Source: Candidatus Zhuqueibacterota bacterium (lineage in GTDB: Bacteria > Zhuqueibacterota > Zhuqueibacteria > Zhuqueibacterales > Geothermadaptataceae). Taken from it: a stretch of DNA of 45,799 nt. The notes under the pieces were generated by a model, which made no database searches, had not been told where the DNA came from, and worked only from the letters and a program-made list of their open reading frames with translations. Position numbers and translations under genes: made by a program. Where the stretch lies: NCBI GenBank assembly GCA_030950365.1, contig JAUZRQ010000049.1:1-45799 (forward strand), written 5' to 3'. Below are positions 372 through 28,274 of the stretch, piece after piece; the first letter of the stretch is position 1, and the number at the start of each line of letters is the position of its first letter.

Positions 372-3323
372 TCACCACCCCTTCATTGGATCTCGACGCA
401 CGCGGATTTTGCCGAAATACGATGTTCCATTCACCGTCAGGGTGATGCGGTACTCGCCGGGCGGGGCCGGTTTGCCCTGCAACCGTCCGCGGAAGGCGCG
501 GCGGAACAGGTTCATGGCGGTGAATTCCTCGGCCATTTCATCCCACATGCGGTTGAGCTCGCTATCGTAGTGGAAGGTATCCAGCGTGCTCCGGGCCTGT
601 TGCACCAGCGCCTTCTGCTTCGGCGTCAACCTCGGCAACCTCTCGATGCGCTGGATGAGCTTGCGAAACCTGCTGACGAACTGCCGCGTCTGCTCCGGCG
701 TGGGATCGAAGCGCAAATCCCATAGCACGCGGTGGATGCCCGCCTCACCCGGTCCATACAGTATGCGTTTGTTTTCGCCGAGCAGATCGCTAATCTCCAA
801 TTGCACCATCCCACCTGCATCGTTTTTGAGATAATAATTGATCAGCCCTCCGCTGACCAGTTTGGCGCGGACGATGTTTTTGCGCTTCGGAATGTACGGC
901 GGATTCTCACCGGCGAAGAAGAAATGCCCGCGCACGCCGCCGCGGGTATGGTCGTTCCAGATCGTCGCCGGGCGCTGCTCGAAAAGATGCGCCCCGGCGT
1001 TGAGCACCTCATCGCTGAGCTGCTGCAGCGGGGTGATGTCATCGAGAATCCACAGGCCGCGGCCATGGGTGCCGGCGATGAGATCCCCGTCGCGGGGATG
1101 GATGACCAGATCGTGCACCGCCACCGTGGGCAGGTTGTGCATCAGCCGGTGCCAGCTTTTGCCGCCGTCGAGGGTGACGTATATCGCGAATTCCGTGCCG
1201 GCGAACAGTAGCTTTGGATTCTTTGCATCCTCCCGCAGCACATAAACCGGCTGCCCGTCCGGGATGCCGCGGGTGATCCGCGACCAGGTATTGCCGTAAT
1301 CGGTGGTTTTGAAAATCCAGGGCCGCAAGTCGGCGCTGCGGTGACCGTCGAAGGTCACGTAGCAAGTGCCCTCATCGAAATGCGATGCCTCCACGTGGCT
1401 CACCCACAGGCCCTCCGGCACGCCGCGGATGCGCTTGCGCACATTCTTCCACGTGACGCCGCCGTTGCGTGTAAGCTGCACATTGCCGTCATCCGTGCCC
1501 ACCCACAGCACCGCCGGGTTCCGAGGCGATTCGGAAAACGCGGTGATGCTGCAGTGAGTTTCGGCGCCGGTCACATCGCGGGTCAGGCCGCCGGTGTCGC
1601 GGCGGGTCTTTTCCGGATCGTTGGTGGACAAATCCGGGCTGATGATCCGCCAGTGGTAGCCCTCATCCACCGATTTGAACAGATAATTGCCTCCCAGATA
1701 CAGCACCTTCGGATTGTGCTTCGACATCACCAGCGGCGCGCGCCAGTTGAACCGGAACTTCGGCGGCAACCGGTTGCCGGAAACCGTGTCTTTTTCGGTC
1801 ACGTAATCGCGGTAATTGATGATATTTTTCGGACTCGGCCTGGTGAATTCCACCTCGCGCGTGGCGATGTTGTAACGACGGAAGCTTCCATTTTCCGCCT
1901 CGGTGTAGCCCTTGCGCCAGTCCGTCGGATCAATCTGGATGAACATGCCGTCGCCCCAGTGCAGCTTCCACCAGCTATCATTGAGAATGCCGCGCACGTC
2001 CTTGCTGAAGCTGGGCCCGCCCCAGGTGCCGTTGTCCTGGGTGCCTCCGTACACGTAGTACGGATCGCGCATGTCCACGCCAATAGCGTAAAACTGCCCG
2101 ACAGGCATGTTGTCGAACAGCACGAAGGTCCTGCCATGGTCGTGGGTCAGAGTCAGCCCTTTGTCTTTGCCGAGATAGTAGCGATCTTTGTTGGTGGGAT
2201 CGAGCCACATGGCGTGAAAATCCAGCCCGCCCTCGAACTCCAAGCCACCGACGTGCAGGGTGCGGCCGCCGTCGAAGGAGTAGCGGAAGGTGGTGGTCAG
2301 CACGTACACGCGCTGATCGTCCAGCGGATTGATGCGAATCTGGCTGTAATAAAACGGCCGGTTGTTGTAGCGGTTGACGTAGGTCCAGGTTTCGCCGCCG
2401 TCTTCAGAGCGGTAGATGCCGGTGCCCAACTTGCTCATGTCGTAATAATCCGGATCATCTTCGCGCGGCTGAAAGCCGTGCTCGATGATTGCCATGAGAA
2501 TCTTTGGATTTTGCCGGTAAATCGCCAGACCGATACGTCCGGTCGGCCCCTCGGGCAGGCCGTTGGTCAGCTTGCGCCATGTGTTGCCGCCGTCGGTGGT
2601 TTTGAAAATGCCGCCGTTGGGGCCGCCACTGTCGAACCGGTACGGCCGACGCAACCGCTGGTAAAACGCCACATACAAAGTGTTGGGATCGGTCGGGTCC
2701 ATCACCAGATCGATGGCGCCGGTTTTGCCGTCGTTGGGCAGCCCGTTGGTGAGCTTCGTCCAGGTTTTGCCGCCATCGGTGGTTTTGAACAGGCCGCGAT
2801 CGCCGATATAGCCCCACAGATAGCCGATGGCCGCCACATACACGATATTCGGATCGTCTGGATGCAGCACGATGCGGGCGATTTGGTAGGTGTCGCGCAG
2901 CCCCATGTTTTGGAAGGTCTTGCCGCCATCGGTGGATTTATAGATGCCGTCTCCCCAGGCCACGCTGTTGCGGTTGTTGGCCTCGCCGGTGCCCACCCAG
3001 ATGATATCCGGATTCTTTTGAAACAGAGCGATGTCGCCGATGGAGGCGCTGCCGTAGTGATCGAAAATGGGCTGCCAGGTGATGCCGGCGTTGGTGGATT
3101 TCCACACGCCGCCAGAGGCTGAGGCCACGATCACGTGGGTGTGGTCGGATTCCAGCGCTTCCACGTCCACGATGCGGCCGGCGAAATTGCCCGGCCCGAT
3201 ATTGCGCCACTTCATTTCGCGCAGCAAAGCATTCACCGAAGGCTGCGCCAGAATCCCGGCAGCCACAAATGTCAGTAGCAGAACAGAAATCAGCCCGGAA
3301 AAGAATTTCTTGTGAGATGACAT
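372..3323 (-). CDS. Secreted BNR-repeat / sortilin-like beta-propeller protein
   Basis: This is a large exported protein of the VPS10/BNR 'glycosyl hydrolase' group, whose biochemical function is usually unknown. I place the start at 3323 because GGGAGG lies at 3329-3334, and a typical signal peptide follows (basic start, hydrophobic run, cleavage near GILA-Q). An in-frame ATG at 3350 has no such site. The mature protein carries about ten Asp-box-like motifs of the form (S/T)xDGGxTW spread over residues ~60-700, as expected for one or two beta-propellers. The C-terminal ~200 residues contain a helical stretch and end in a small beta domain with PPGEYRITLTVNG. No type IX sorting tail is visible. 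The family assignment is firm. Sialidase or other catalytic activity should not be assumed, because no catalytic set is evident. Confidence 0.85.
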   Translation of the reverse strand: MSSHKKFFSGLISVLLLTFVAAGILAQPSVNALLREMKWRNIGPGNFAGRIVDVEALESDHTHVIVASASGGVWKSTNAGITWQPIFDHYGSASIGDIALFQKNPDIIWVGTGEANNRNSVAWGDGIYKSTDGGKTFQNMGLRDTYQIARIVLHPDDPNIVYVAAIGYLWGYIGDRGLFKTTDGGKTWTKLTNGLPNDGKTGAIDLVMDPTDPNTLYVAFYQRLRRPYRFDSGGPNGGIFKTTDGGNTWRKLTNGLPEGPTGRIGLAIYRQNPKILMAIIEHGFQPREDDPDYYDMSKLGTGIYRSEDGGETWTYVNRYNNRPFYYSQIRINPLDDQRVYVLTTTFRYSFDGGRTLHVGGLEFEGGLDFHAMWLDPTNKDRYYLGKDKGLTLTHDHGRTFVLFDNMPVGQFYAIGVDMRDPYYVYGGTQDNGTWGGPSFSKDVRGILNDSWWKLHWGDGMFIQIDPTDWRKGYTEAENGSFRRYNIATREVEFTRPSPKNIINYRDYVTEKDTVSGNRLPPKFRFNWRAPLVMSKHNPKVLYLGGNYLFKSVDEGYHWRIISPDLSTNDPEKTRRDTGGLTRDVTGAETHCSITAFSESPRNPAVLWVGTDDGNVQLTRNGGVTWKNVRKRIRGVPEGLWVSHVEASHFDEGTCYVTFDGHRSADLRPWIFKTTDYGNTWSRITRGIPDGQPVYVLREDAKNPKLLFAGTEFAIYVTLDGGKSWHRLMHNLPTVAVHDLVIHPRDGDLIAGTHGRGLWILDDITPLQQLSDEVLNAGAHLFEQRPATIWNDHTRGGVRGHFFFAGENPPYIPKRKNIVRAKLVSGGLINYYLKNDAGGMVQLEISDLLGENKRILYGPGEAGIHRVLWDLRFDPTPEQTRQFVSRFRKLIQRIERLPRLTPKQKALVQQARSTLDTFHYDSELNRMWDEMAEEFTAMNLFRRAFRGRLQGKPAPPGEYRITLTVNGTSYFGKIRVRRDPMKGW

Positions 3324-3352
3324 GAATGCCTCCCTTCGCTTCGCAATCATCC

Positions 3353-3483: not shown

Positions 3484-3870
3484 ATGCGTCTGAAATACGG
3501 ATTTTTGCTGGCGGGCGCGGCTCTGATGATGGCCTGCGGCCCTTCGCTGCAGCTCGAAAATCCGCGCCACTATGATCGCGATCATATCGTTCAGGAAGAA
3601 ATTGAAAATACCCACGCATCCACAGCGTTGGAGCTGATCGAAAACCTGCGGCCGCACTGGCTGCGCGGCCGGGGCACCAAATCGATCCGCTTTGCCGAAG
3701 TATCGTATCCGTATGTGTATGTCAACGGCAACCGGCTTGGCAGTATTCACACGCTGGCCACGCTTCCGGCGGATAACATCACCGACATGCGATTTTTGAA
3801 CGCCGGTGAGGCAACCATCCTGTTCGGCATGAACCATCCCAGCGGCGCCATTGTGATCGAGATTTTTTAA
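3484..3870 (+). CDS. Small lipoprotein resembling an isolated TonB-receptor plug domain (paralogue 1)
   Basis: I chose the ATG at 3484 because GGAG at 3474-3477 sits six bases upstream. The adjacent ATG at 3481 would have only three. The product is about 128 residues: a short hydrophobic leader ending in a lipobox (LMMAC), a linker, then a compact domain. The domain contains LRPHWLRGRG, YVYVNGNRLG, DNITDMRFL, ATILFG and HPSGAIVIEIF. This order matches the plug-domain pattern seen in the SusC protein of this window (VVDG, then DIESIEIL, then AIYG, then NGVVLITT), but with no barrel. A close paralogue lies at 5891-6283, with a gamma-glutamyltransferase-like gene between them. The stop shares the tetranucleotide TTAA (3867-3870) with the convergent enzyme gene. 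Lipidation and plug homology are read from the sequence; function is unknown. Confidence 0.75.
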   Translation: MRLKYGFLLAGAALMMACGPSLQLENPRHYDRDHIVQEEIENTHASTALELIENLRPHWLRGRGTKSIRFAEVSYPYVYVNGNRLGSIHTLATLPADNITDMRFLNAGEATILFGMNHPSGAIVIEIF

Positions 3871-5597
3871 CGGCGCGATTCCAGTATGGGGCGGTTCTCC
3901 CGGCTTGCCAGAAATAATAAGGTTTGCTTTGATTCTTCGGCTGACTTTCCCGCAGGTCGCCGCGCCGTACGCACCACGCCATCGCGGCGCGGATCGGCCG
4001 CACCGGTCCACCGACCCCGCTCGAAGGCCACCGCATGCACACCGCCGAAATAGGCATTGAGTCCTCGCAGCATGAGGTCCTTTTTCGGCTCGGCAAGCTG
4101 GTATCCCGCTCCGGCGAGGGCTTTCTCAATGAGAGATTTCAATTTCGCATCTTCGATGTACACGCGCCGATCCGGACGCACATGCAGGCGCGGAAATGCC
4201 ACGGCTTGCTGGATGGATAGCCCGGCATCGATCCAGAGTTGCACCACCTGCGTCACCGCCGAAATGATGCGCGCACTGCCCGGGCTGCCCAGTCCGAGGA
4301 CCGGTCTCCCATCGCGGGCCACTACGGTGGGGCTCATGGACGAATACGGCATGCCCCCCGGGCGCAGAGCAAACGGATGCGCTGGGTCATCGAGCACGAA
4401 TTCGTGCATGTAGCTGTTGTACAGGAATCCCAGCTCGGCATTGGCCACTCGCGCGCCGAAATAGCTGTTGATGCTGGCCGTCACGCTGACCACCATGCCG
4501 TTCGCATCCACGACCGAAAAGTGGGTGGTTTCGCCTCCTCTTTCCATGTCCTGCCACTGCCGGCGGGCCGCCGCTTTGTCCAGCCGTTTTCGGATTTCAT
4601 CCTCATACCGGCTCAGGTCCGGGATTGGCTGCTGTTTCCGGTTACGGTGCCCCAACCATAAGGCCCGGGCCAATAAAAGCGGCCGCTCGGGACTTGACGG
4701 CTGCAATTGCTCCGCCGGCAGTTGATTCAAAAAATTGAGAATCTGCAGCACCACCCAGCCTCCGCCGGGCGGCGGCATAGAATACACCGTGCAATTCCGG
4801 AACGAAACCCGAATCGGGGGGATTTCACGCGGCTCCGGGAACTGGCGCAAATCATCGAGGCTGATCCAGCCGCTGTGACGCTGCATGTCCTCGGCCATGA
4901 TTTGCGCAATAGCGCCGCGGTAAAAATCCTCACCCCCGATCTGCGCCAGCCGTTTCAGAGTCTTCGCGAGGCGCGGCTGCTTCCAGATCTGGCCTTCCGA
5001 TGGCACGCTGCCATCCGGATTGAGAAACAGCAGCCGGGTGGATGCATGCTCGCGCAGACGTTCGGCATGCCGCTGCCAGACACGCTGGCGAAACGGCCCG
5101 ACCCGAAATCCACTTTCCGCATATCGAATGGCCGGCGCCAGCACATCGGCCCAGCTCACCCGGCTGCTGCCGTAGTTTTGTAGAGCGTACTGCAGCACCT
5201 TGACGCTGGACGGTACGGTGGTGGCGCGGTGCCCGGCAATATCCGAGGCCGTCATGTTTGGCGGTAGCTTTCGCGGCGCGTAGGATGTTCCGTTGATCAT
5301 CACCGGCTGGCCGCTTGCCGGATAGATCAACACTTGCGTTTGCCCGCCAAGACCGGACATGGCCGGCTCGGTCACGGCCAGCGCAAATGCCACGGCCACG
5401 GCGGCATCCACGGCATTGCCGCCGGCCTCCAAAGTGGTGCGCCCCGCATCGGCGGCCTCGGGCGTGGCCGCCGCCACCACGCCGGCAAAGGTTTCGTTCG
5501 CAGGCTGCGGGTTGGAAGAGCAGGCCCCATGGGCGAGCGACAGGAGGCATAGCAGGGCAAAGAATGTGTTCCGGTTTTGCAATGATTGAAACTGCAT
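3867..5597 (-). CDS. Gamma-glutamyltransferase-like Ntn hydrolase, exported
   Basis: This is a member of the gamma-glutamyltransferase family, in which an autoprocessed precursor exposes an N-terminal Thr nucleophile and acts on gamma-glutamyl compounds in the periplasm. The length (576 aa) is normal. Visible landmarks are a hydrophobic leader with a Cys at 26 (poor lipobox, so cleavage type is uncertain), the AGGNAVDAAVA motif near 58, GLGGQ near 82, the processing-site motif ETTHFSVVD with the predicted nucleophile Thr357, PYSSMSPT near 417, and GLGSPGSARI near 435. One oddity is that the segment usually reading (Y/G)RExAP, whose Arg holds the substrate alpha-carboxylate, reads GTSYAP here. 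Substrate preference may therefore differ from classical GGT. The gene lies alone on its strand between two plug-like lipoprotein genes on the opposite strand. Confidence 0.88.
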   Translation of the reverse strand: MQFQSLQNRNTFFALLCLLSLAHGACSSNPQPANETFAGVVAAATPEAADAGRTTLEAGGNAVDAAVAVAFALAVTEPAMSGLGGQTQVLIYPASGQPVMINGTSYAPRKLPPNMTASDIAGHRATTVPSSVKVLQYALQNYGSSRVSWADVLAPAIRYAESGFRVGPFRQRVWQRHAERLREHASTRLLFLNPDGSVPSEGQIWKQPRLAKTLKRLAQIGGEDFYRGAIAQIMAEDMQRHSGWISLDDLRQFPEPREIPPIRVSFRNCTVYSMPPPGGGWVVLQILNFLNQLPAEQLQPSSPERPLLLARALWLGHRNRKQQPIPDLSRYEDEIRKRLDKAAARRQWQDMERGGETTHFSVVDANGMVVSVTASINSYFGARVANAELGFLYNSYMHEFVLDDPAHPFALRPGGMPYSSMSPTVVARDGRPVLGLGSPGSARIISAVTQVVQLWIDAGLSIQQAVAFPRLHVRPDRRVYIEDAKLKSLIEKALAGAGYQLAEPKKDLMLRGLNAYFGGVHAVAFERGRWTGAADPRRDGVVRTARRPAGKSAEESKQTLLFLASRENRPILESRR

Positions 5598-5890
5598 GAC
5601 AGGCTATCTTTTGTTTATCTTGTTACACGACATTTCAGGAAATGATCGATAACGAATCAGCGCTGCCGCTTTAAAAAACCGAAAAAACAAAGGGGCCTAC
5701 CGCCAATTGCATATATGTTTGAACCGCACCCCACCGCCTCTCCGCACTTTTTCATTGCATTTTTTGGGCGCCCGTCGTAAACTGGTTGTGGATGCACAAC
5801 CGAATTCGATGTCCGATCATGCTCACCTGCCCGGCGCGTGTGCACCCGCAAAACCGGCAAAACCCGCCGATCAAAATGCACAGGTGTCCC

Positions 5891-6283
5891 ATGTCATTTT
5901 TCAAACTCAGCCTGATTTTCGTGCTGCTGGCGCTTTGCGCCTGCGCCGCACCGCGCAACGGCGAGCAGGCAACCGGTGGCCGTGATCGCAATTTGATCAG
6001 CCTGGCAGAGATACAATCCAGCCATGCGTCCAATGCCTACGACCTGATCCGCGAACTGCGCCCGCACTGGCTGCGTGGTCGCGGCCAGAAGTCCATCAAA
6101 TTTGCCAGTGTGGCCTATCCAGTGGTGTATGTCAACGGCAACCGCCATGGCAGCGTGCAGTCGCTGTACAATCTCACCACGGACAACATTACTGAAATCC
6201 AGTTTCTCGATCCGGGCGATGCCACCGTGCGTTTCGGCGCCAATCATCCCAGCGGCGCCATACTGGTTACCATGTTCTACTGA
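5891..6283 (+). CDS. Small lipoprotein resembling an isolated TonB-receptor plug domain (paralogue 2)
   Basis: The reading frame is open further upstream, but the ATG at 5891 starts a clear lipoprotein signal (MSFFKLSLIF, then a hydrophobic run to LCACA). Only a weak AGGTG precedes it at 5882-5886. The ~130-aa product is strongly similar along its length to the protein at 3484-3870. Shared blocks are LRPHWLRGRG, KSI(R/K)FA, YP-V-YVNGNR, DNIT and (G/A)NHPSGAI. The C-terminal half, from VVYVNGNR to HPSGAILVTMF, follows the strand order of TonB-receptor plug domains. No beta-barrel or TonB box is present. Possible roles include a periplasmic or outer-membrane-anchored regulator or partner of a TonB-dependent transporter. 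This is inference only. Confidence 0.75.
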   Translation: MSFFKLSLIFVLLALCACAAPRNGEQATGGRDRNLISLAEIQSSHASNAYDLIRELRPHWLRGRGQKSIKFASVAYPVVYVNGNRHGSVQSLYNLTTDNITEIQFLDPGDATVRFGANHPSGAILVTMFY

Positions 6284-6519: not shown

Positions 6520-6553
6520 GAGGCCCCGCCTCTCCAGCCTGAAGCAGGGCCTC
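6520..6553 (-). terminator. Probable rho-independent terminator of the SusC/SusD transcript
   Basis: GAGGCCC at 6520-6526 pairs with GGGCCTC at 6547-6553. Read on the minus strand it lies 18 bases after the SusD stop and is followed by GCTATTTTATT. The loop is long (20 nt) and the T-tract interrupted, so efficiency is uncertain. Confidence 0.5.
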
Positions 6554-6570: not shown

Positions 6571-7977
6571 TTACGGATTTATGGTACGGCCCGGATAAGT
6601 CGGATTTCCTGGATCATTTTCCACGCGATGGTACAGCGGCTCATCGTATTTGGGCGTGTTCGGATTGGTGTTAAGCTCATCATCGGAATACAGGAGCCGC
6701 CGCGGAATGCGTTTGCCTTCGGGCACATACTGGAAAATCGGAAACGCGGTCCGACGCCAGTCGCTCCATATCTGCATGTTCAGGAACATGGCCTTGTATT
6801 TTTCCAGCATGATGGCCTCCAGCAAGTCCACGCCGCTGAGGTTAGCATAGCGTGGCAACGAATTGGCCGGCAATCCCCATTTGGCCTCGAGTCCGGGCTG
6901 AATCACATCGTTCAGCGTGGCCAGCGCCCCGGCTTCATCGCCGAGCTTGTACTGGCACTCGGCAATGATGAACTGGTTTTCGAACCACGATACCAGATCC
7001 ATGTCCCAGTCCTTGGCGCCGAACGTTTCCGGATTCAGCGGGCTGGCATCGCCGAAGAACTCGCCGGGTTTAGAGCCAACGTATTCGCCGTCCTCGTTTT
7101 TAGCGAAGTATACCTCCAGCCGGGGATCGTTATGCGCCTTCAGCAGCTCCACCAGATAGTTGCCGGCGCGCACATATCCGAAGCGCCTGGTTTCGAACTG
7201 CCACCAGATGGCTTCTTCACCGGCCACATCCGAGTGGCGCGTACGCCAGTTGTCGGCATCGCTGGCGATGCCCATCTGCGCCTCGGTCAGCGCCTTTTGA
7301 TAATTGGCCGGATCGACCTCGGCCCAGTTGAGTAGGATGCGCGCTTTCAGCGTATGCGCCGCGGCGATCCATTTGTCCTTGTCGCCGCCATACGTCAGGT
7401 CCCACTTGCCGTCAAAAAACGGTTGTCCGGCGTTCAGGTCTTCGATCGCACTGTCGATCAGGTTCAGGATCGCGTTGTGCACTTCGGATTGTTTGTCGTA
7501 CTTCGGAAACGGGATTTCTGGATTGGCGGCCTCCGAGTACGGAATATCGCCCCACAAATCGGCGGCCGTGCTCATCACCAGCGCCTCCCACATCTTGGTG
7601 ATGCCCACCAGGGTGCGCTTGCCCTCGGCCGCGCCTTTTTCCTCGATGAGTCGCATATCCACCAGTCCGCCTCCGCCATAAATATCAAACCACTGCGAGG
7701 AAAACTGTGCCGGGGTTTGGTTGTAGATGTCGTAGCCGGAATAGTGCTGCGCCACACCGGCCATTTGTTGCATCCACATCATGACGGTGCGGTTCAAATG
7801 GGCTTCCATGACGCCATACATGGAAACCTGCACCCCCAGGAACAGATTTTCCAGGGGCACGTCCGTGGCCCGGTTCGGATCGTTATCCAGATTCGGCCCC
7901 GAGAGAAAATTCTTGCACGCCCCGAGCCACATCATCATGACGCTGATAGTAATTATGGAAACGAGTTTTCTAAGCAT
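6571..7977 (-). CDS. SusD/RagB-family nutrient-binding outer-membrane lipoprotein
   Basis: This is the surface-exposed binding lipoprotein that caps a SusC-type TonB-dependent transporter and hands over oligosaccharide or peptide ligands. The start at 7977 is set by GGGAGG six bases upstream; an ATG at 7998 would overlap the SusC stop and lacks a site. The leader LVSIITISVMMMWLGAC has a good lipobox. The mature part shows the SusD-like fold signature: an N-terminal helical region with repeated Trp/Gln-rich helices (MMWMQQMAGVAQHY), an ALVMSTAADLWGDIPYSEA stretch typical of TPR1 of this family, and a C-terminal W-DWRRTAFP region. Length (468 aa) fits the 'SusD-like 2' subgroup. It sits 17 bases downstream of susC, so the two are almost certainly co-transcribed. 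The substrate cannot be named: no polysaccharide-degrading enzyme lies alongside. Confidence 0.92.
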   Translation of the reverse strand: MLRKLVSIITISVMMMWLGACKNFLSGPNLDNDPNRATDVPLENLFLGVQVSMYGVMEAHLNRTVMMWMQQMAGVAQHYSGYDIYNQTPAQFSSQWFDIYGGGGLVDMRLIEEKGAAEGKRTLVGITKMWEALVMSTAADLWGDIPYSEAANPEIPFPKYDKQSEVHNAILNLIDSAIEDLNAGQPFFDGKWDLTYGGDKDKWIAAAHTLKARILLNWAEVDPANYQKALTEAQMGIASDADNWRTRHSDVAGEEAIWWQFETRRFGYVRAGNYLVELLKAHNDPRLEVYFAKNEDGEYVGSKPGEFFGDASPLNPETFGAKDWDMDLVSWFENQFIIAECQYKLGDEAGALATLNDVIQPGLEAKWGLPANSLPRYANLSGVDLLEAIMLEKYKAMFLNMQIWSDWRRTAFPIFQYVPEGKRIPRRLLYSDDELNTNPNTPKYDEPLYHRVENDPGNPTYPGRTINP

Positions 7978-7994
7978 CGCTTTCCTCCCGGTCA

Positions 7995-10900
7995 TCAATA
8001 GTTAAAGTAAATGGTCATGAAGAAGGAGCGGGTTTGCGGCTGGTTGAAGTAATCGCTGTCACGCTGATTGGTGGCCTGACGCCGGTTCGACTCGGGGTCA
8101 TAGCCGGTATAGTCGGTCCAGGTGTACAGATTGCGGCCGCTCAAAATCACCCGCACATCACTCAGGCCAAAGTTTCTCAGGAACTGATTCCGGAAGGTGT
8201 ACGAAACGGAAATTTCACGCAACTTCACATAGCTGGCGTCTTCGGTGAACAGCCAGCCATCACCGGAAAAACCGGAAGCAATGCCGCGGAAGAATTTCTC
8301 GTCATACACAATATCCTTGCCCACGCCATTGGTCGCGCCCGGGCCGATGGCCTTTTCGCCATGTTTGAACCAGCGATTGATCGGTCCTACCTGGCCGCGC
8401 ACCTCGGTGTCCTTGTGCGTGCCGTAGGAATACAGCGCGCCTTTGGTGTGGTTCATGATTTCGAATCCCTGCTTGAAATCCAGCAAGGTGGTGATGGTGA
8501 GGTTGCGGAACAGGCGAAATTCATTGCGGATACCGCCCGTCCAATCCGGATTCGGATCGAAACCGGACCACAGCCGGTCGGTGTGCATGATTGGATAGCC
8601 GTCTTCCGCAATGTACACATCGCCTTTTTTCCACTGACCTTTGTATTTCTCGTCGATATCGACGAGCTGGCCGTTCTCTTCGACCTTCAATCCGTAGCCA
8701 AACCGCACCCAGGACTGCAGGCGCATTTCGCCCAGCGGATGACCGGGAGACGCATAGGCCCAGCGCCCCACCTGTTCCCAGATTTCCTTGCTGGGATCCT
8801 TTTTGATATCCTCCGCCGTGATGCCGGCCATTTCCAGCACCATGTTTCGGTTGCGGGCATAGTTGATCGAAATATCCCAGTTGAAATTCCGCGTACGGAT
8901 CGGATTCAGGTCCAGGGTAATTTCCAGACCCTTGTTTTCGATCACTGCCGCGTTGGCCGTCTGTGAAAAGAATCCGGTGGACGGCACCACATTGAGATCG
9001 AACAGCACATCGGTGGATTTGTCATAGTAGTACGTGATGTCCAGGCCGATGCGGTTGTTGTAAAACCCCAGAAACGTGCCGATTTCGAACTCTTTGGTAC
9101 GCTCGGGCTTCACGTTATCGTTGCCGAGGTTGCCGCTGGTGTAATAGCCCTTCAGGCCCTGATAGGTCATGTTCAAAATGCCCGACCAGCCGGTGCTCTT
9201 GACGCCGGAATTGAAACCGGAAATGGTGGTGTACACGCCGGGCTGCACACCGGCTTCGCCATAGGCCACGCGCAGTTTACCGTAATCGATGTACGGCAAT
9301 TTTTTGAACTTGGTGAATTCCCACGCCGCGCTGGCCTTGGGATACCAGTGCCGTTTCTGGCTCTTGCCGAACGTGGACGAGCCTTCGTTCCGGAACGCGC
9401 CAGTCAGGTACAACTGATCGAACAGGTCCACGGTCAACTGGCCGAAGAACGATTCCGTGTGAATGAGATATTCGTACTCGTCCGCACGCAGGTTGGTGGA
9501 AATGGTGTTATCCAGTTGATTGAAGCCCGGGATGCCCATATCGATGCCGGTAACATCGAAGCGCCGGAAGCTGCGGCTGTTCAGGTTGTGGCCGAGCATC
9601 AGGGTGGCGTTGATGTTTTTGTAGTTCTTCAGCAACTTGTCGCCCTGCACCGTCAGCACCAGGTTGCCGTCGAGCTCATGATAGAGGAAATCCACCTTTT
9701 TGATGCGGCCGACGCCGTCTTCGCGCGAGCTGCTGATCGGCACGATTTCGGCGCGTGCGTCGGTCCAATAATCGGAGCCGAGCGTGTAATCCAGCTTCAC
9801 CCAGTCGAGCAGGTTGTATTCCAGCTTCACGTTGCCGTACACGCGGTTCATGGTCGCCGGATTGTCGTGCTCGTATAGAATGAAAAACGGGTTATCGAAC
9901 TTTCGGCTGGCGCGGAGCTCTTTGGCATCGGAATAGCGGTACGAGCGGTGGTAGCCGGTCACCGGGTGCAAATACGGCCAGTTATTGAATTCCGGTGGTG
10001 TCCGCAATGAAGCAATGCCCACGCCGATGGCGTTGTCACCGCGCTGCAGGTAATGGGCCTTGGTGTTGGCGTAGGCCAGGTTGCCGGTCAGTTTGAACTT
10101 GGACGATAGCACCTGACTGGCCTTCAGCCGCGCGGAATATCGCCGGTAATCCGAACCGGCCTTCCAGTGGCCTTTTTCGTACAGATGGCCGAGCGAAATG
10201 TAGAAGGTCGTCAGTTCATTGCCGCCGGAAATGGTGATGTTGTTTTCGTTGGTCCAGCCCATGTCGGTCAGTTCGCGGGCGTGGTCGTAAATCGTGTCGA
10301 TGGGAGCACCGGGATCGTAGTGCGGCGCGCCGGGAACGTTCAGCGGACGGCCCCAGCTTCGCGAGTAGTTCTTGCGGAACTTGCCCTTGGTTCCCTGACC
10401 AAACCAGGTCTGCAGCGGATAGAATTTCGACTGCTTGGTCATGCCGAGCACCTGCTTGTAGCTGATGCGCGTTTTGCCGGGCTTGCCGCTCTTGGTGGTA
10501 ATCAGCACCACGCCGTTGGAAGCACGCGATCCGTAAATGGCCGAAGCCGCAGCCCCTTTCAGGATTTCGATCGATTCGATATCCTCGAGGTTCAAATCGG
10601 CCGCACGGTTTTGCGCTTCGGTACCGCCATTGAAGCCGTTGGTGTAAAGCGTCACATTGCTGATGGGAGTGCCATCAACCACAAACAGCGGTTGGGTCGG
10701 GCGGTCGATGGTCGCCGCGCCACGGATGCGGATATAGGTGTTGGTACCGGCGTCGCCGCTGGTCTTGGTGATCTCGAGATTGGCCACCTTGCCGCTCAGT
10801 GCCGAAACGATATTCGCATCGCCGGCATTGACCACTTCCTCCGCACGTACCTTGGCAATGGTCACGCCGAGCTTTTCCTTGATCTGCGTGCCACCGGCGC

Positions 10901-22265: not shown

Positions 22266-25019
22266 TCACTTGCCCCTATATGGCACCCCCTGTTTGATCC
22301 AGTCCGGCGCCGGCAGGCCTTTGAGATAGTGATCGAAATACTGCTTCATTTTCATGGCGTAATCCAGCTTATTGGGATATTTGCGCAAATGGTGCGGCTC
22401 GCCGCGGTACTGCAGGAACACGCAGTCTTTGCCCAGCCGGCGCATGGCCAGATACAGCTCGATGCCCTGATACCACGGCACCGCGCCGTCCTCATCACCG
22501 AACATGATCAGCAGCGGCGTGTTGATGCGGTCGGCGAAAAACACCGGCGAGTTGGCAATGTACCGCTCGGGGTATTCCCACAGGCTGCCGCCGATGCGGC
22601 TCTGGGTCTGCTCATACTGAAACTGCCGCGCCAGTCCCGATCCCCAGCGGATGCCGCTGTACGCGCTGGTCATGTTCGACACAGGCGCGCCGGCGATGGC
22701 GCAGGCAAAAATATTCGTCTGCGTGATGATAAATGCGGTCTGGTAGCCGCTCCACGAATGCCCGTGCAAGCCGATGCGGTTGGGATCCGCAATGCCCATG
22801 TCGATGAGCTTCTGCACGCCGGGCACCAGCGACTTGGTGGCCGCGAACCCGGGCCGGCCGACTTCGAACCGGATGTCCGGCAGGAAGATGGCGTAGCCGT
22901 TGCTGGCGTACAGCGGAAAGCACGGCCGGTGATTAACCACCGGCTGATTGAACTGATGCAGCCGCTGCGAGAAAAAGCGGTAGAAATACACGATCACCGG
23001 ATAGCGCTTGCCGGGCTGGTAATTGCCCGGCTTGATCAGTACGCCCTGCAGCGGCCGGCCGTCGAGACTGCGCCACTCCACCAGCTCGGCGCTGCCCCAG
23101 GCAAAATTTTTGATCTGCGGATTGACGTGGGTCTGTTTTCGGCGTTTGCGGAACGCGCTGTCGGTGATCCACAGGTCCGGGAATTCGGTGTAGCTTTCGC
23201 GCGTGTACAGGAGGCGGTCGACCTCTTTCGCCCGGGCAATCAGCCGGAACCGTTTCGGCTCTTCGAGCAATTTTTTCACGCCCTTCCGCCCCACCCGGCA
23301 GGTGAATATGCCGTTGTGCTTCTTCCGATCGTGATAGCCCAGCAGCAGGAGTTTCTCGCCCGCCTTGAACGCCAGCTTTTTGCGATCGAATTGGTGCACG
23401 CGGAAAATCCACTGGCTGCGGCGGCCGTAGCCGTCGGTCAAACAGATGGGCTCGCCGCCATTGGTGGGGAATTGCCAGAGGTCGTATTTGTCGTAAATTA
23501 GCACCGCGGCGTCGTTTTCCACCCAGCCGGCGATGCCGTAGCCTGGCGGCGGATACGGATAATCGTGATCCTCGTTGAAAAACACCACGCGCAGCTTTTG
23601 CGTCAGGTTGCGCGTTTCGCCGGTGCGTGTGTTCACCAGGTGCCAGTGCTGGTTCTGGTAGTACACCGCAAACCGTCCCTGTGGCGACAGGTACACCGGT
23701 CGGCCGCGCAGCCGCTGCGAAATGCGCCGCCGCTCGCCGGTTTTCAGATCGACCACGTAAGCGTCGTACAGCCGGCCTATCCAGGTCATGTATTTGCGGT
23801 ACGGCACATCGGTGATGCCCAGCGCATAGTCTGGGTTTTCGGGGCGAAAAATGCGCGTCAGCGCGGTATCGCCGAGCTGCACCACGCGGCGGTCGGCCAG
23901 GTGAAACACCGCCGTGTAGGTGGTGTCCTGCATGGCCTTCCAGATTTTCTTCTGGTGCGGATTGATGTACGGGTCGTTCCAGTGCCAGACATCCACCTCG
24001 CGTTTTTCGAGGATTTTGTCCAGGTCGTACAGATCGTTTTCGTCCTCTTTCTTTTCCACCGCACCGGTTTCCGGCTTTTGAGGCCGCAGGCCGAAAAACA
24101 GTCGCTGGCCGTCCATGCTCCAGCTCAGGTAATTTTTCGACGGGATCATCCAGCCGGCGGGGACGCTTTCGGAATCCGCCGCCTTTAGCAACTGCCCGTC
24201 GGCCGCGTTCCACATCCACAGCGTGCCCGGACCGGTTTGGCCGTCGTCCTTTTCTTCGGCTTCCACGAAGGCGAGCCGCGGCGCGCGCGTGCTCCAGCGC
24301 AGATTCGTGTAGCGGTGATACGCCTTTCCGATGAGCGTGTCCACCGGCGCGTCGGCCTCGCGCAGACGGCGCACGAACACGCCATGCCGCTTCGCCGCGG
24401 TGTCGGCCACGGAAAAGGCCAGGTAACTCGAGGTGCTGTCGAAGGCAAACGACCGCACGCCGGTCATCTCGTAATCCCGGCCGGCGGTCAGATCGCGCAG
24501 CAGCAGCTTGGTGCCGGAGACGCGCTTGCCGGATTTTTTATCTTTGCCGCCGTTTTTCTTTTTCTTTGCCTTTTCCGCCGCGAAGTGCACGGCAAACCAG
24601 CGGCCATCGTTCGAAAACCGAAACCGCTGCACGTTATGAAACGTGTCGATCCGGCCGGTGCGCAGGCGGATGAGCAGCACCCCCGACCTGGGTTTGTCCT
24701 TTTTCTTTTTCTCTCGCTCCAGAAACGGCGCCAACCACAGCGCCGCGCCCCATTCCTCGGTGGAAGCGATTGCCGGCTTTGAGCCGTGCGGCAGCACGTG
24801 CCGTTTTTTGCCGTTGATCTGCTGGAACACCGCCTCGCCGTCGCCGCGATCCGGCGCGGCCTCGTAGGCCAGCCAGCCGCCCTTCGCCGAAATCACCGGC
24901 GATTTGATGGCTTTGAATTTCATCACATCCTCGAAGGTCATGGCGCGCTTTTTCTGCCCAGCCGCCACGACCGGAAGCAACAACAAAACAACCCCAATCC
25001 AGCCAAAGTACCGTTTCAT
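22266..25019 (-). CDS. Secreted S9-family prolyl oligopeptidase-like peptidase
   Basis: This is a serine peptidase of the prolyl oligopeptidase/dipeptidyl aminopeptidase group. I start at 25019 (AGGA eight bases upstream); two in-frame ATGs lie 5 and 9 codons earlier. The 917-aa product has a signal peptide (MKRYFGWIGVVLLLLP, cleavage near VAAGQ), a long WD40-like propeller region (~40-600), and a C-terminal alpha/beta hydrolase domain. The triad is Ser755 in GHSWSGYQ, Asp844 in GDEDGAVPWYQG and His876 in RGEPHHLRKYP. Two Lys-rich low-complexity insertions (residues ~101-110 and ~149-166) interrupt the propeller. It acts on peptides in the periplasm or outside the cell. It stands alone; neighbours face the same way but are far apart. 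Confidence 0.92.
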   Translation of the reverse strand: MKRYFGWIGVVLLLLPVVAAGQKKRAMTFEDVMKFKAIKSPVISAKGGWLAYEAAPDRGDGEAVFQQINGKKRHVLPHGSKPAIASTEEWGAALWLAPFLEREKKKKDKPRSGVLLIRLRTGRIDTFHNVQRFRFSNDGRWFAVHFAAEKAKKKKNGGKDKKSGKRVSGTKLLLRDLTAGRDYEMTGVRSFAFDSTSSYLAFSVADTAAKRHGVFVRRLREADAPVDTLIGKAYHRYTNLRWSTRAPRLAFVEAEEKDDGQTGPGTLWMWNAADGQLLKAADSESVPAGWMIPSKNYLSWSMDGQRLFFGLRPQKPETGAVEKKEDENDLYDLDKILEKREVDVWHWNDPYINPHQKKIWKAMQDTTYTAVFHLADRRVVQLGDTALTRIFRPENPDYALGITDVPYRKYMTWIGRLYDAYVVDLKTGERRRISQRLRGRPVYLSPQGRFAVYYQNQHWHLVNTRTGETRNLTQKLRVVFFNEDHDYPYPPPGYGIAGWVENDAAVLIYDKYDLWQFPTNGGEPICLTDGYGRRSQWIFRVHQFDRKKLAFKAGEKLLLLGYHDRKKHNGIFTCRVGRKGVKKLLEEPKRFRLIARAKEVDRLLYTRESYTEFPDLWITDSAFRKRRKQTHVNPQIKNFAWGSAELVEWRSLDGRPLQGVLIKPGNYQPGKRYPVIVYFYRFFSQRLHQFNQPVVNHRPCFPLYASNGYAIFLPDIRFEVGRPGFAATKSLVPGVQKLIDMGIADPNRIGLHGHSWSGYQTAFIITQTNIFACAIAGAPVSNMTSAYSGIRWGSGLARQFQYEQTQSRIGGSLWEYPERYIANSPVFFADRINTPLLIMFGDEDGAVPWYQGIELYLAMRRLGKDCVFLQYRGEPHHLRKYPNKLDYAMKMKQYFDHYLKGLPAPDWIKQGVPYRGK

Positions 25020-25330
25020 GAGCCATCCTGTCATTTGGTTCTTCAACGCATTGCCCTTTTAAAACACGCCCCGCTGTGAAGGACAGCCGCCCCTGCCGCT
25101 GCGTTCAAAATTCGTGGTCCAGTTAATATGCCAACATGAACAACCACCTGGCGCCATGATGCATTGTTGAACGCGGCGCCCATAAAAAGCACGGGACGGT
25201 GGGGAGCGACCTCTTGTGTTTTGCCCGTTTCATCCATATGCTATTCACATGCTGCGAGCGAATATGCCAAGTGGCTTATGATATGATCATCTCCACATCC
25301 GAATCCATACGCCAATGATTGGTAGAGAAC

Positions 25331-26234: not shown

Positions 26235-27722
26235 TCATTTCCCCGGGCGGCGGCCACGCAACCCCTTAGCCCACGACTCCCACATGCCCATGCCTTTGAG
26301 CTGATCCGCCAGCGAGGTGGTCTCCACCAGCTTTTTCACCTCGTCGTACGACTGCCGGCCCCAGGTCACATCCATCTCGGCGAAGCCGTACGTCACCGCC
26401 GCGGCGATGAGCATGTTCAGCCGCAGTTGCCGCAAATCCACCTTGTCGTACGTGTCCGAGCGCGCGTGATAATTCGGCCCGTAATTGGCCGATTCCTGAT
26501 TCGCCACCAGATTGCCCACGCCCTGCAGCATGAAATCCAGATTGTCCGTGCCCACCAGCGGCTCGTTGATGTGCGTGAACGGCCCGAGACCGGCCACCGG
26601 TTTCAGCGCCTTTTCCACCGCGGTCAGCAGCTCGCTGCGCCCATTGGTGAAAAATCCGGTAATGCGCCCGCTGCCAATGTCGAACGACGCCGCCATCACG
26701 TAGTTGTCCAACTCCTTTTCGTGCTGCTCCGTGTATTTCCACGAGCCGATGATGCCCTGCTCCTCGCCGTTCCACAGCGCGAAACGGATCGTCCGCCGCG
26801 GCTGCAGGCCCAGCTTCTTGATCTGCCGTGCGATATCGATCAGCATGGCCACATTGCAGCCGTCGTCCAGCGCGCCGGTGCCCAGATCCCACGAGTCCAG
26901 GTGCGCACCAACGATGACGATTTCCTCCGGCTTTTCGCGGCCCTTGATTTCGGCGACCACGTTGTAGCTGGTGTACGGTCCGCCACGTTTCACTCGGATG
27001 ATGGCCGTGGCTTGAAGCTGTTTGCCGGCGCGCAGCAGCCGCAGCGCCCGTTTGGCGCCCTCGCGCTCCATGACCAGCAGCGGATGCTTGTTGTCCGGTC
27101 CCAGGGACGCGTTGTGGCGGTACAGCAAATTGCGCGGCCGCGACGCCATGTAAATCAGCCCCTTCACGCCCGCGGCAAACGCCCGTTTTTCGATCTCCAC
27201 GGCCTCGCCGTACTCGCGGAACAGATCGTCCAGATTTCGGAGTTCGTGTGTTTCCACCAGCACGAACGCGCCGCGGGCCTTCTCGCCCAGCCGGGCGAAA
27301 TCATCTTCCGTGCCGAAACCGCCATCCACCAGCGGCGCGGTGAGACCCTTCGGCGGCGTGCCCACGGAAAACGGCATGGCCACCACCCGCGGCGTAAACG
27401 ACACATCGCCGTGGATGCGCAGCTCGGACGACTCTTCCAACCATAGCGCCGGCATTTCAAACGGCTCTTTCCAGACCTTCACGCCAATGTCCTGGAATTT
27501 CTGCACCCCCCATTCCACGGCCTTGAGATTGGCTTCCGAGCCGGTGGGCCGCCCGCCGAATTGATCGGTCAGCTCCTGCAGGTCTTCTTCCAGCGGCGTG
27601 TCCTGCAATAGCGCCGCCAGGAGCTTTTGCACATCGCCGGTCTGCGAATAAAGCGGCCGGGCGATAAAGCCAACCCAGGCCAGTAGTAAAATGACCCCGG
27701 CAAAATACGTACGTCTGTTCAT
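26235..27722 (-). CDS. Secreted M28-family metallopeptidase (with PA-like insert)
   Basis: This is a zinc aminopeptidase/carboxypeptidase of family M28, exported to digest peptides. The start at 27722 has GGAGG six bases upstream; the longer frame to 27794 has none. The 495-aa product begins with a signal peptide (cleavage near LYSQ). An N-terminal helical part is followed by a PA-like region (~110-255). The peptidase domain carries the dinuclear-zinc set: His274 (VGAHLDSW), Asp286 (GALDDGCN), catalytic Glu320 and ligand Glu321 (WNGEEQG), Asp348 (SFDIGSG) and His419 (NYHARSD). Everything needed for activity appears present. It is one of three large secreted hydrolases in the window, suggesting a protein-degrading life style. 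Confidence 0.93.
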   Translation of the reverse strand: MNRRTYFAGVILLLAWVGFIARPLYSQTGDVQKLLAALLQDTPLEEDLQELTDQFGGRPTGSEANLKAVEWGVQKFQDIGVKVWKEPFEMPALWLEESSELRIHGDVSFTPRVVAMPFSVGTPPKGLTAPLVDGGFGTEDDFARLGEKARGAFVLVETHELRNLDDLFREYGEAVEIEKRAFAAGVKGLIYMASRPRNLLYRHNASLGPDNKHPLLVMEREGAKRALRLLRAGKQLQATAIIRVKRGGPYTSYNVVAEIKGREKPEEIVIVGAHLDSWDLGTGALDDGCNVAMLIDIARQIKKLGLQPRRTIRFALWNGEEQGIIGSWKYTEQHEKELDNYVMAASFDIGSGRITGFFTNGRSELLTAVEKALKPVAGLGPFTHINEPLVGTDNLDFMLQGVGNLVANQESANYGPNYHARSDTYDKVDLRQLRLNMLIAAAVTYGFAEMDVTWGRQSYDEVKKLVETTSLADQLKGMGMWESWAKGLRGRRPGK

Positions 27723-28274
27723 GGCCTTCCTCCTCAAATTGACCGTTTGTGATTGCTTAGAGTCTAACATCTGACTTTTTGTTTGAAATCTCATCCCAGG
27801 GTGGATACCGTTGTCGCTCAGCGAACCGATCCTCTTATGCCAGATTCAACGATGCTTTTCTGCTCTCGGTAAGCCGAATGCTCCATGTTGAACGGCATGG
27901 GTTCCCTGTTCATCCTTTTTTAGCCAGGATGTACAGGATAAACAGGAAAAATGCATGGCAAAAATAGGCGAATCACCATGAATAAGAATCATCCTGTCAA
28001 TACTATTTTTCACCAGCGCATTGACTTTTGGGAGCGCGCAAAAGAGAAATTAAGAATTTCAATCATCGCTGAAGAGATGGGAAATTGTTTATTAGCGAAC
28101 TGACTTAGTACCGATTTTCTGACCAAATGGCATAAGCGCGCTGCATCCGGTAAAATTAAATGGCATTTGCAAAAAATCAAATGGATTCATCCGAGGACGG
28201 GACATGGGGAGCGTTTCCCCAGTATGCAGTTTGCAACGGACGGCCCCCCACAAAAATGCGGCACCAATGGCAGG
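27723..28274. other. Intergenic region with a degenerate dispersed repeat
   Basis: These are 552 bases without a credible gene. Positions ~27908-27948 carry degenerate repeated text of the CAGGATGTACAGGATAAACA type. No terminator is obvious after the C25 protease gene, and no promoter was identified for the M28 gene. Confidence 0.5.

Follow-up and report, generated by a model that had tools for sequence, protein, structure and literature searches.

TonB-dependent importers are taken as self-contained barrels with a built-in plug, and the closest described relative of the proteins analyzed here is the plug of the SusC/RagA family (PF07715), as in Bt1763 and RagA. In the published model of import by SusCD complexes, TonB disrupts the SusC plug or extracts it. 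According to the same report, how the system resets once the plug has been displaced is unclear in its details, and a closed, empty Bt1762-63 complex in detergent is without its whole plug, a loss that the authors think likely to be non-physiological (PMC7782687). Two groups of lipoproteins are also relevant for comparison. SusE, SusF and other surface lipoproteins of the utilisome are in some cases encoded with SusC and SusD (PMC7618045), and the N-termini of SusE and SusF have an Ig-like fold (PMC11216935). The DUF1735 spacers of PUL lipoproteins are lipid-anchored N-terminal modules at importer loci, which are fused to other domains (including GH18), form an Ig-like sandwich, and are reported in that source only from Bacteroidota (PMC11216935). 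The proteins described below, termed free plugs, resemble both groups in being lipid-anchored and, in part, encoded at importer loci, and one of them is fused to a GH115 enzyme. In contrast to both, they have the plug fold, and our survey, which covered Gemmatimonadota, Neomarinimicrobiota and the KSB1 phylum, found them in all three.

We analyzed a window of 45,799 nucleotides from a Candidatus Zhuqueibacterota (KSB1) bacterium that encodes two free plugs, P0001 (128 aa; 3484..3870, plus strand; lipobox MMAC) and P0002 (130 aa; 5891..6283, plus strand; lipobox CAC). Each begins with a hydrophobic signal followed by a lipobox Cys at residue 18, and pairwise alignment gives 60% identity across 98 aa (E 1e-45), which confirms their initial annotation as paralogous lipoproteins of about 130 aa. 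The lipobox Cys is present in 96 (92%) of the 104 free-plug alignment rows that have this column. The genome encodes a third member of the family on a different contig. The gene between the two, on the minus strand, encodes a gamma-glutamyltransferase (GGT; 3867..5597; Pfam G_glu_transpept, E 3.9e-115) with an N-terminus that appears lipobox-like by eye. Downstream of P0002 and convergent with it is a minus-strand gene for a SusD-like lipoprotein (6571..7998; Pfam SusD-like_2, E 5.4e-52), beyond which, on the same strand, lies P0003 (7995..11264), a SusC/RagA TonB-dependent transporter (TIGR04056, 569 bits) with its own plug (Pfam Plug, 62.1 bits). On the other side, a Sortilin/Vps10-BNR protein (372..3350, minus strand) is divergent from P0001, and S9 and M28 peptidases are also encoded near the plug genes. 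The promoter and terminator scan of this region was near background. In the gap that separates SusD from P0002, where the SusC-SusD genes end, a terminator-like hairpin (6520..6553, minus strand) is weakly supported, since five such sites were found in the region against a mean of 4.3 in shuffled sequence.

The assignment of P0001 and P0002 as plug domains relies on their predicted structures. The AF2 models of the individual proteins had mean pLDDT values of 89.9 for P0001 (29 sequences) and 85.3 for P0002 (14 sequences). In Foldseek searches against the PDB, all 50 matches listed for each protein were TonB-dependent transporters (E 1.3e-3 and weaker), and these align to the models over the transporter plug. 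Superposition on the plug region of SusC Bt1763 by VIA-align gave Z 8.6 and rmsd 2.6 over 90 residues for P0001, and Z 8.1 and rmsd 2.7 over 91 residues for P0002, with model residues of about 31-130, that is the whole domain, included in the alignment. Despite the modest Z of about 8 the assignment is convincing because every listed match is a plug-bearing transporter, and the predicted plug fold of both proteins is thus well supported. A transmembrane beta-barrel of about 22 strands is absent, as the proteins have only 128 and 130 aa and the models show the plug alone. The initial annotation had anticipated exactly this, a plug domain with no barrel.

Sequence profiles by themselves are near their limit for this assignment, and it is the fold comparison that decides. 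The Pfam Plug profile (PF07715) matched P0001 with E 4.5e-4 and 21.1 bits, below the curated cut-off of 23.9 bits, and gave no match to P0002. Of 29 members of the family, 15 were matched at E<=0.01. A 14-member family profile searched against solved structures matched SusC proteins weakly (E 0.08), and a 17-member profile matched some of the SusC proteins encoded in the loci compared below with E 4e-6 to 1e-4. For P0002, a weak local match to P0003 (25% over 52 aa, E 0.029) falls in the region where the initial annotation had seen a motif parallel with the plug of the nearby SusC. Such proteins carry the database name 'TonB-dependent receptor plug domain-containing protein', and the plug reading would annotate small lipoproteins that Pfam catches only around its cut-off.

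Using the 17-member profile, we identified the family in 9 of 82 genomes of the KSB1 phylum (15 copies), in 8 of the 120 Neomarinimicrobiota genomes sampled, and in 79 of the 121 Gemmatimonadota genomes sampled (E<=1e-12, matches without internal stops). Several Gemmatimonadota genomes have at least five to eight copies each, and these copy numbers are lower bounds, as no more than 35 candidates per genome were scored. A tblastn search of plasmids with one Gemmatimonadota member as query gave no match. We found no description of a natural barrel-less plug lipoprotein in titles and abstracts of the open-licence literature, in line with the earlier remark that free plugs are poorly described. 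The family is widespread and, it appears, uncharacterised.

The genomic context was compared across 94 plug loci, comprising 14 from the KSB1 phylum (including the window), 71 from 43 Gemmatimonadota genomes, and nine from Neomarinimicrobiota. Plug score decided the choice of the Gemmatimonadota loci, apart from one batch of 20, most of which were picked for long frames, and all were selected blind to the presence of SusC; 40 arbitrary regions of 16.4 kb from 11 of the same 43 genomes served as controls. Neighbours were detected with iterated profiles seeded with the proteins of the window, and SusC was counted at >=500 aa. A SusC gene was present in 29 of 71 Gemmatimonadota loci and in none of the 40 control regions (Fisher p 2e-7, a value that overstates independence, since the loci are related, several come from one genome, and the controls are from 11 of the same genomes). 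Six of 14 KSB1-phylum loci and one of nine Neomarinimicrobiota loci likewise had SusC, and the iterated profiles did not detect it in the remaining 42 Gemmatimonadota, 8 KSB1-phylum and 8 Neomarinimicrobiota loci. For 81 plugs, of which 38 have SusC nearby, mapping SusC proximity onto the family tree requires at least 21 changes, and this proximity therefore does not go back to one inherited event.

The arrangement of these genes is also recurrent. SusC lies upstream of the plug on the same strand for 19 of 86 Gemmatimonadota and 4 of 15 KSB1 plug ORFs. In the commonest layout SusC is followed after 1.2-2.9 kb by the plug (18 and 4 ORFs, respectively), and the one further Gemmatimonadota gap is 4.1 kb; the remaining 20 plug ORFs near SusC have other orientations. 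Among ten ORFs scanned between SusC and plug, eight matched Pfam SusD_RagB at E<=0.01, five of them above the curated cut-off, and 5 of 22 listed plug-SusC pairs have no ORF of >=200 aa in between. In genome G080, from the same order as the window (locus L018), SusC and SusD are 69-70% identical to those of the window and a plug lipoprotein follows directly. A Neomarinimicrobiota locus (L136) has the gene arrangement of the window, with SusC (51% identity to the window's) and SusD (47%) and then a convergent plug gene, whose product groups with the copies of the window. Thus SusC with SusD is the recurrent genomic partner of free plugs, and the linkage is partial.

The same survey bears on the GGT gene. 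The initial annotation had seen the two lipoproteins as placed symmetrically around the enzyme in a duplicated functional unit, and had named a lack of conserved linkage to GGT in related genomes as evidence against this view. Both plug genes are on the plus strand and GGT is on the minus strand, convergent on P0001 (with a 4-base overlap) and divergent from P0002, so that the arrangement is not symmetric. By iterated profiles, a GGT homologue occurs in just 2 of the 94 loci, the window and L018, and in the latter about 3.6 kb that contain other ORFs separate it from the plug. We therefore rejected a GGT-centred unit, and the window GGT is probably a neighbour and not a conserved part of the plug unit. 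Close pairs of free plugs (<2.6 kb apart) are common, with fifteen in the 94 loci including the pair in the window, and therefore do not require a GGT in between. A general linkage to Sortilin/Vps10-BNR proteins was not shown, as these were found in 6 of 71 Gemmatimonadota loci and 1 of 40 control regions (p 0.42). Within the KSB1 phylum, such a gene near the plug recurs in the window, L019 and L020, and in the latter two the related protein is also encoded divergently from the plug gene.

We used the residues that follow the lipobox Cys to compare the likely location of the free plugs and their neighbours. An acidic residue at positions +2 to +6 is present in 17 of 18 neighbouring SusD-type lipoproteins and in 11 of 96 free plugs; the sole exception among the former is the SusD of the window itself. 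These 18 proteins remain from 19 after one without a lipobox (L171) was dropped, and they include two (L022 and L029) without a Pfam SusD match. In Bacteroidetes, an acidic motif after the Cys directs lipoproteins to the cell surface (PMC5080379). If this export rule, known only from Bacteroidetes, holds here, SusD would be exported to the surface, with the free plug retained on the periplasmic leaflet. A second and likewise indirect pointer to the periplasmic side is the GH115 fusion, in which one ORF of 1090 aa (L163) combines a lipobox, a free plug (residues 14-131), a GH115 catalytic domain and a GH115 C-terminal domain; in B. ovatus, an enzyme of the GH115 family is predicted to be periplasmic (PMC4491172).

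On these grounds we tentatively propose that free plugs serve TonB-dependent importers, mainly SusC-SusD systems, as accessory subunits at their periplasmic side, with both the side and the action inferred. The lipid anchor would tether the free plug to the outer membrane, facing the periplasm at the opening of the SusC barrel. There it may bind the transporter, or the plug displaced from it, and could then help the channel to close after transport, or retain periplasmic enzymes where the imported oligomer emerges. The cargo of the importer in the window is plausibly a peptide, because GGT and the S9 and M28 peptidases are encoded nearby. Against the proposal, no SusC was detected near over half of the copies, the window's own SusD departs from the acidic-residue pattern, and the loss of the Lys-Gly motif described below means that free plugs have given up at least one feature of SusC plugs. 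Separately anchored plugs, often beside SusC-SusD, suggest that plug function or contacts are possible in trans.

A broader role as periplasmic adaptor or anchor is somewhat doubtful; here the plug fold would have been co-opted for contacts with proteins or other partners in the envelope, with the importer linkage as only one part of its use. It would account for the copies without SusC nearby, which are the majority, and for the free-plug modules in other barrel-less proteins. In addition to the GH115 fusion, L117 and L155 have a CarboxypepD_reg domain with two plug modules, L156 and L157 have this domain with one weaker plug module, and L146 has a plug pair with another N-terminus. The GH115 and CarboxypepD_reg fusions, all without a barrel, imply that the plug domain is a module able to stand without one. 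The genes adjoining SusC-free copies are diverse. Peptidases of the M28 (6) and M20 (6) families are the commonest among 137 neighbours scanned, and M1 (2) and M61 (2) peptidases also occur; these counts, which come from plug loci alone and so imply no enrichment, cover the 137 of 146 listed ORFs that were scanned together, the nine largest being scanned apart. The adaptor role is harder to reconcile with the presence of SusC in 29 of 71 plug loci against none of the control regions, as given above.

It is unlikely that the free plugs instead face outward and capture substrate for SusCD as surface lipoproteins, in the manner of SusE and SusF, by drawing on the capacity of plugs to bind ligands. 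Surface lipoproteins in SusCD operons do dock on SusC (PMC7618045), some genes next to the plugs encode hydrolases, and the isolated FepA plug binds siderophore at 5 uM, weakly, even though it behaves as unfolded (PMC11658791), whereas the models of the free plugs predict a well-folded domain. Two features argue against this role. Unlike the neighbouring SusDs, and unlike SusE and SusF, the free plugs are mostly without the residues that resemble a surface-export signal. They also lack a stretch of about 14 residues that SusC plugs have after P58 and a loop of about 13 residues after residue 86 (P0002 numbering, as for all positions below). Segments like these form apical loops.

The alignment of free plugs with SusC plugs shows both common and distinct features. 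Besides the fold and the order of elements, they share an Asp or Asn at 82 (98% of free plugs), A111 (99%), and G116 and G122 (100% each). Free plugs also retain R64-G65 (83% and 67%), aligned to the IRG motif of SusC plugs. In contrast, the Lys-Gly motif at 107-108 (94% and 97% in SusC plugs) is replaced, and at several positions the residue conserved in free plugs is not the usual one of SusC plugs, namely R57 (94%), W60 (73%), R104 and R114 (68% each) and H119 (58%). There is no obvious TonB box, as the linker columns of 111 free-plug rows show no conserved short motif, although TonB boxes are weakly conserved. A Lys or Arg of the plug helps to keep it in the barrel. The initial annotation had suggested that free plugs could gate, sense or decoy a transporter. 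Because the Lys-Gly motif and the two segments are missing, the free plug seems less likely simply to imitate the resident SusC plug.

Two more specific roles would place the free plug at a SusC barrel that stands open. We regard as decidedly unlikely that the lipid-tethered plug acts in trans to guard or re-seal the open barrel from the periplasm, or aids the return of the resident plug. If true, it would be a reset factor acting once TonB has drawn the resident plug from its SusC barrel, and the family offers a concrete protein with which to test SusCD reset. Very unlikely is a back-up stopper that comes from the periplasm to occupy the vacated barrel until the resident plug returns. The loss of the whole plug from Bt1762-63, which its authors think likely to be non-physiological, together with the unclear details of reset, leaves room for such a stopper, and the retained R64-G65 is consistent with it, but the replaced Lys-Gly motif and the conserved R57, R104, R114 and H119 argue against it. 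The accessory role at the periplasmic side remains our preferred reading.

The alignment for the phylogenetic comparison had 128 columns and 148 rows, of which 111 were free plugs and 37 were plugs of SusC proteins. Domains covering <85 profile positions and the SusC of L029, in which no motif was found, were left out of the trees, and the plug of L163 was excluded from the trees and from the plug counts per ORF. One branch (SH-aLRT 94) holds 34 of the 37 SusC rows and no free plugs, and the other three SusC rows fall outside it. The labels free plug and SusC change at least three times on the tree, compared with a mean of 33 for shuffled labels. Free plugs are thus a distinct family apart from most SusC plugs, in a tree that has few columns for its many rows and 66 of 145 forks open. 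A recent truncation of the neighbouring SusC is not supported by this tree, within the limits set by its few columns and many open forks. That free plugs are functionless, decaying remnants of truncated SusC genes, as a plug-like sequence without a barrel might suggest, is scarcely credible and already contradicted by the separate SusC branch, by the 92-100% conservation of R57, C18, L92, A111, G116 and G122, and by the matches without internal stops in 79 of 121 Gemmatimonadota genomes. P0001 and P0002 themselves fall into a group of seven rows (SH-aLRT 97) with the plugs of L018, L019, L020 and L021 from the KSB1 phylum and of L136 from Neomarinimicrobiota.

A Sortilin/Vps10-BNR protein is encoded at positions 372-3350 of the window, divergently from a plug lipoprotein, and this divergent arrangement is shared by L019 and L020, which makes three KSB1-phylum loci including the window. 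Among the Gemmatimonadota plug loci, 6 of 71 have such a protein close to the plugs, versus one of 40 arbitrary control regions from Gemmatimonadota genomes (p 0.42). Elongation factor G domains were matched by 4 of the 137 proteins neighbouring SusC-free plug copies. Farther along the window are genes for an S9 prolyl oligopeptidase-type peptidase (22266-25046) and an M28 peptidase (26235-27794).

At L018, a KSB1-phylum locus, a terminator-like hairpin accompanied by a T run was recognized by eye in the interval between the SusD and plug genes (8018-8050), and the plug gene may be expressed by read-through.

A single-ORF fusion of 1090 aa from Gemmatimonadota combines a lipobox, a free plug, GH115 and GH115_C (L163:5002-8274). 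Two barrel-less CarboxypepD_reg proteins end C-terminally in two tandem plug modules (L117:7633-9645 and L155:3502-6003). Locus L146 carries a tandem pair of plug-module proteins (229 and 232 aa; 7699-8388 and 8449-9147), in which, as judged by eye, a glycine-rich, zipper-like segment precedes the plug module in place of a lipobox.
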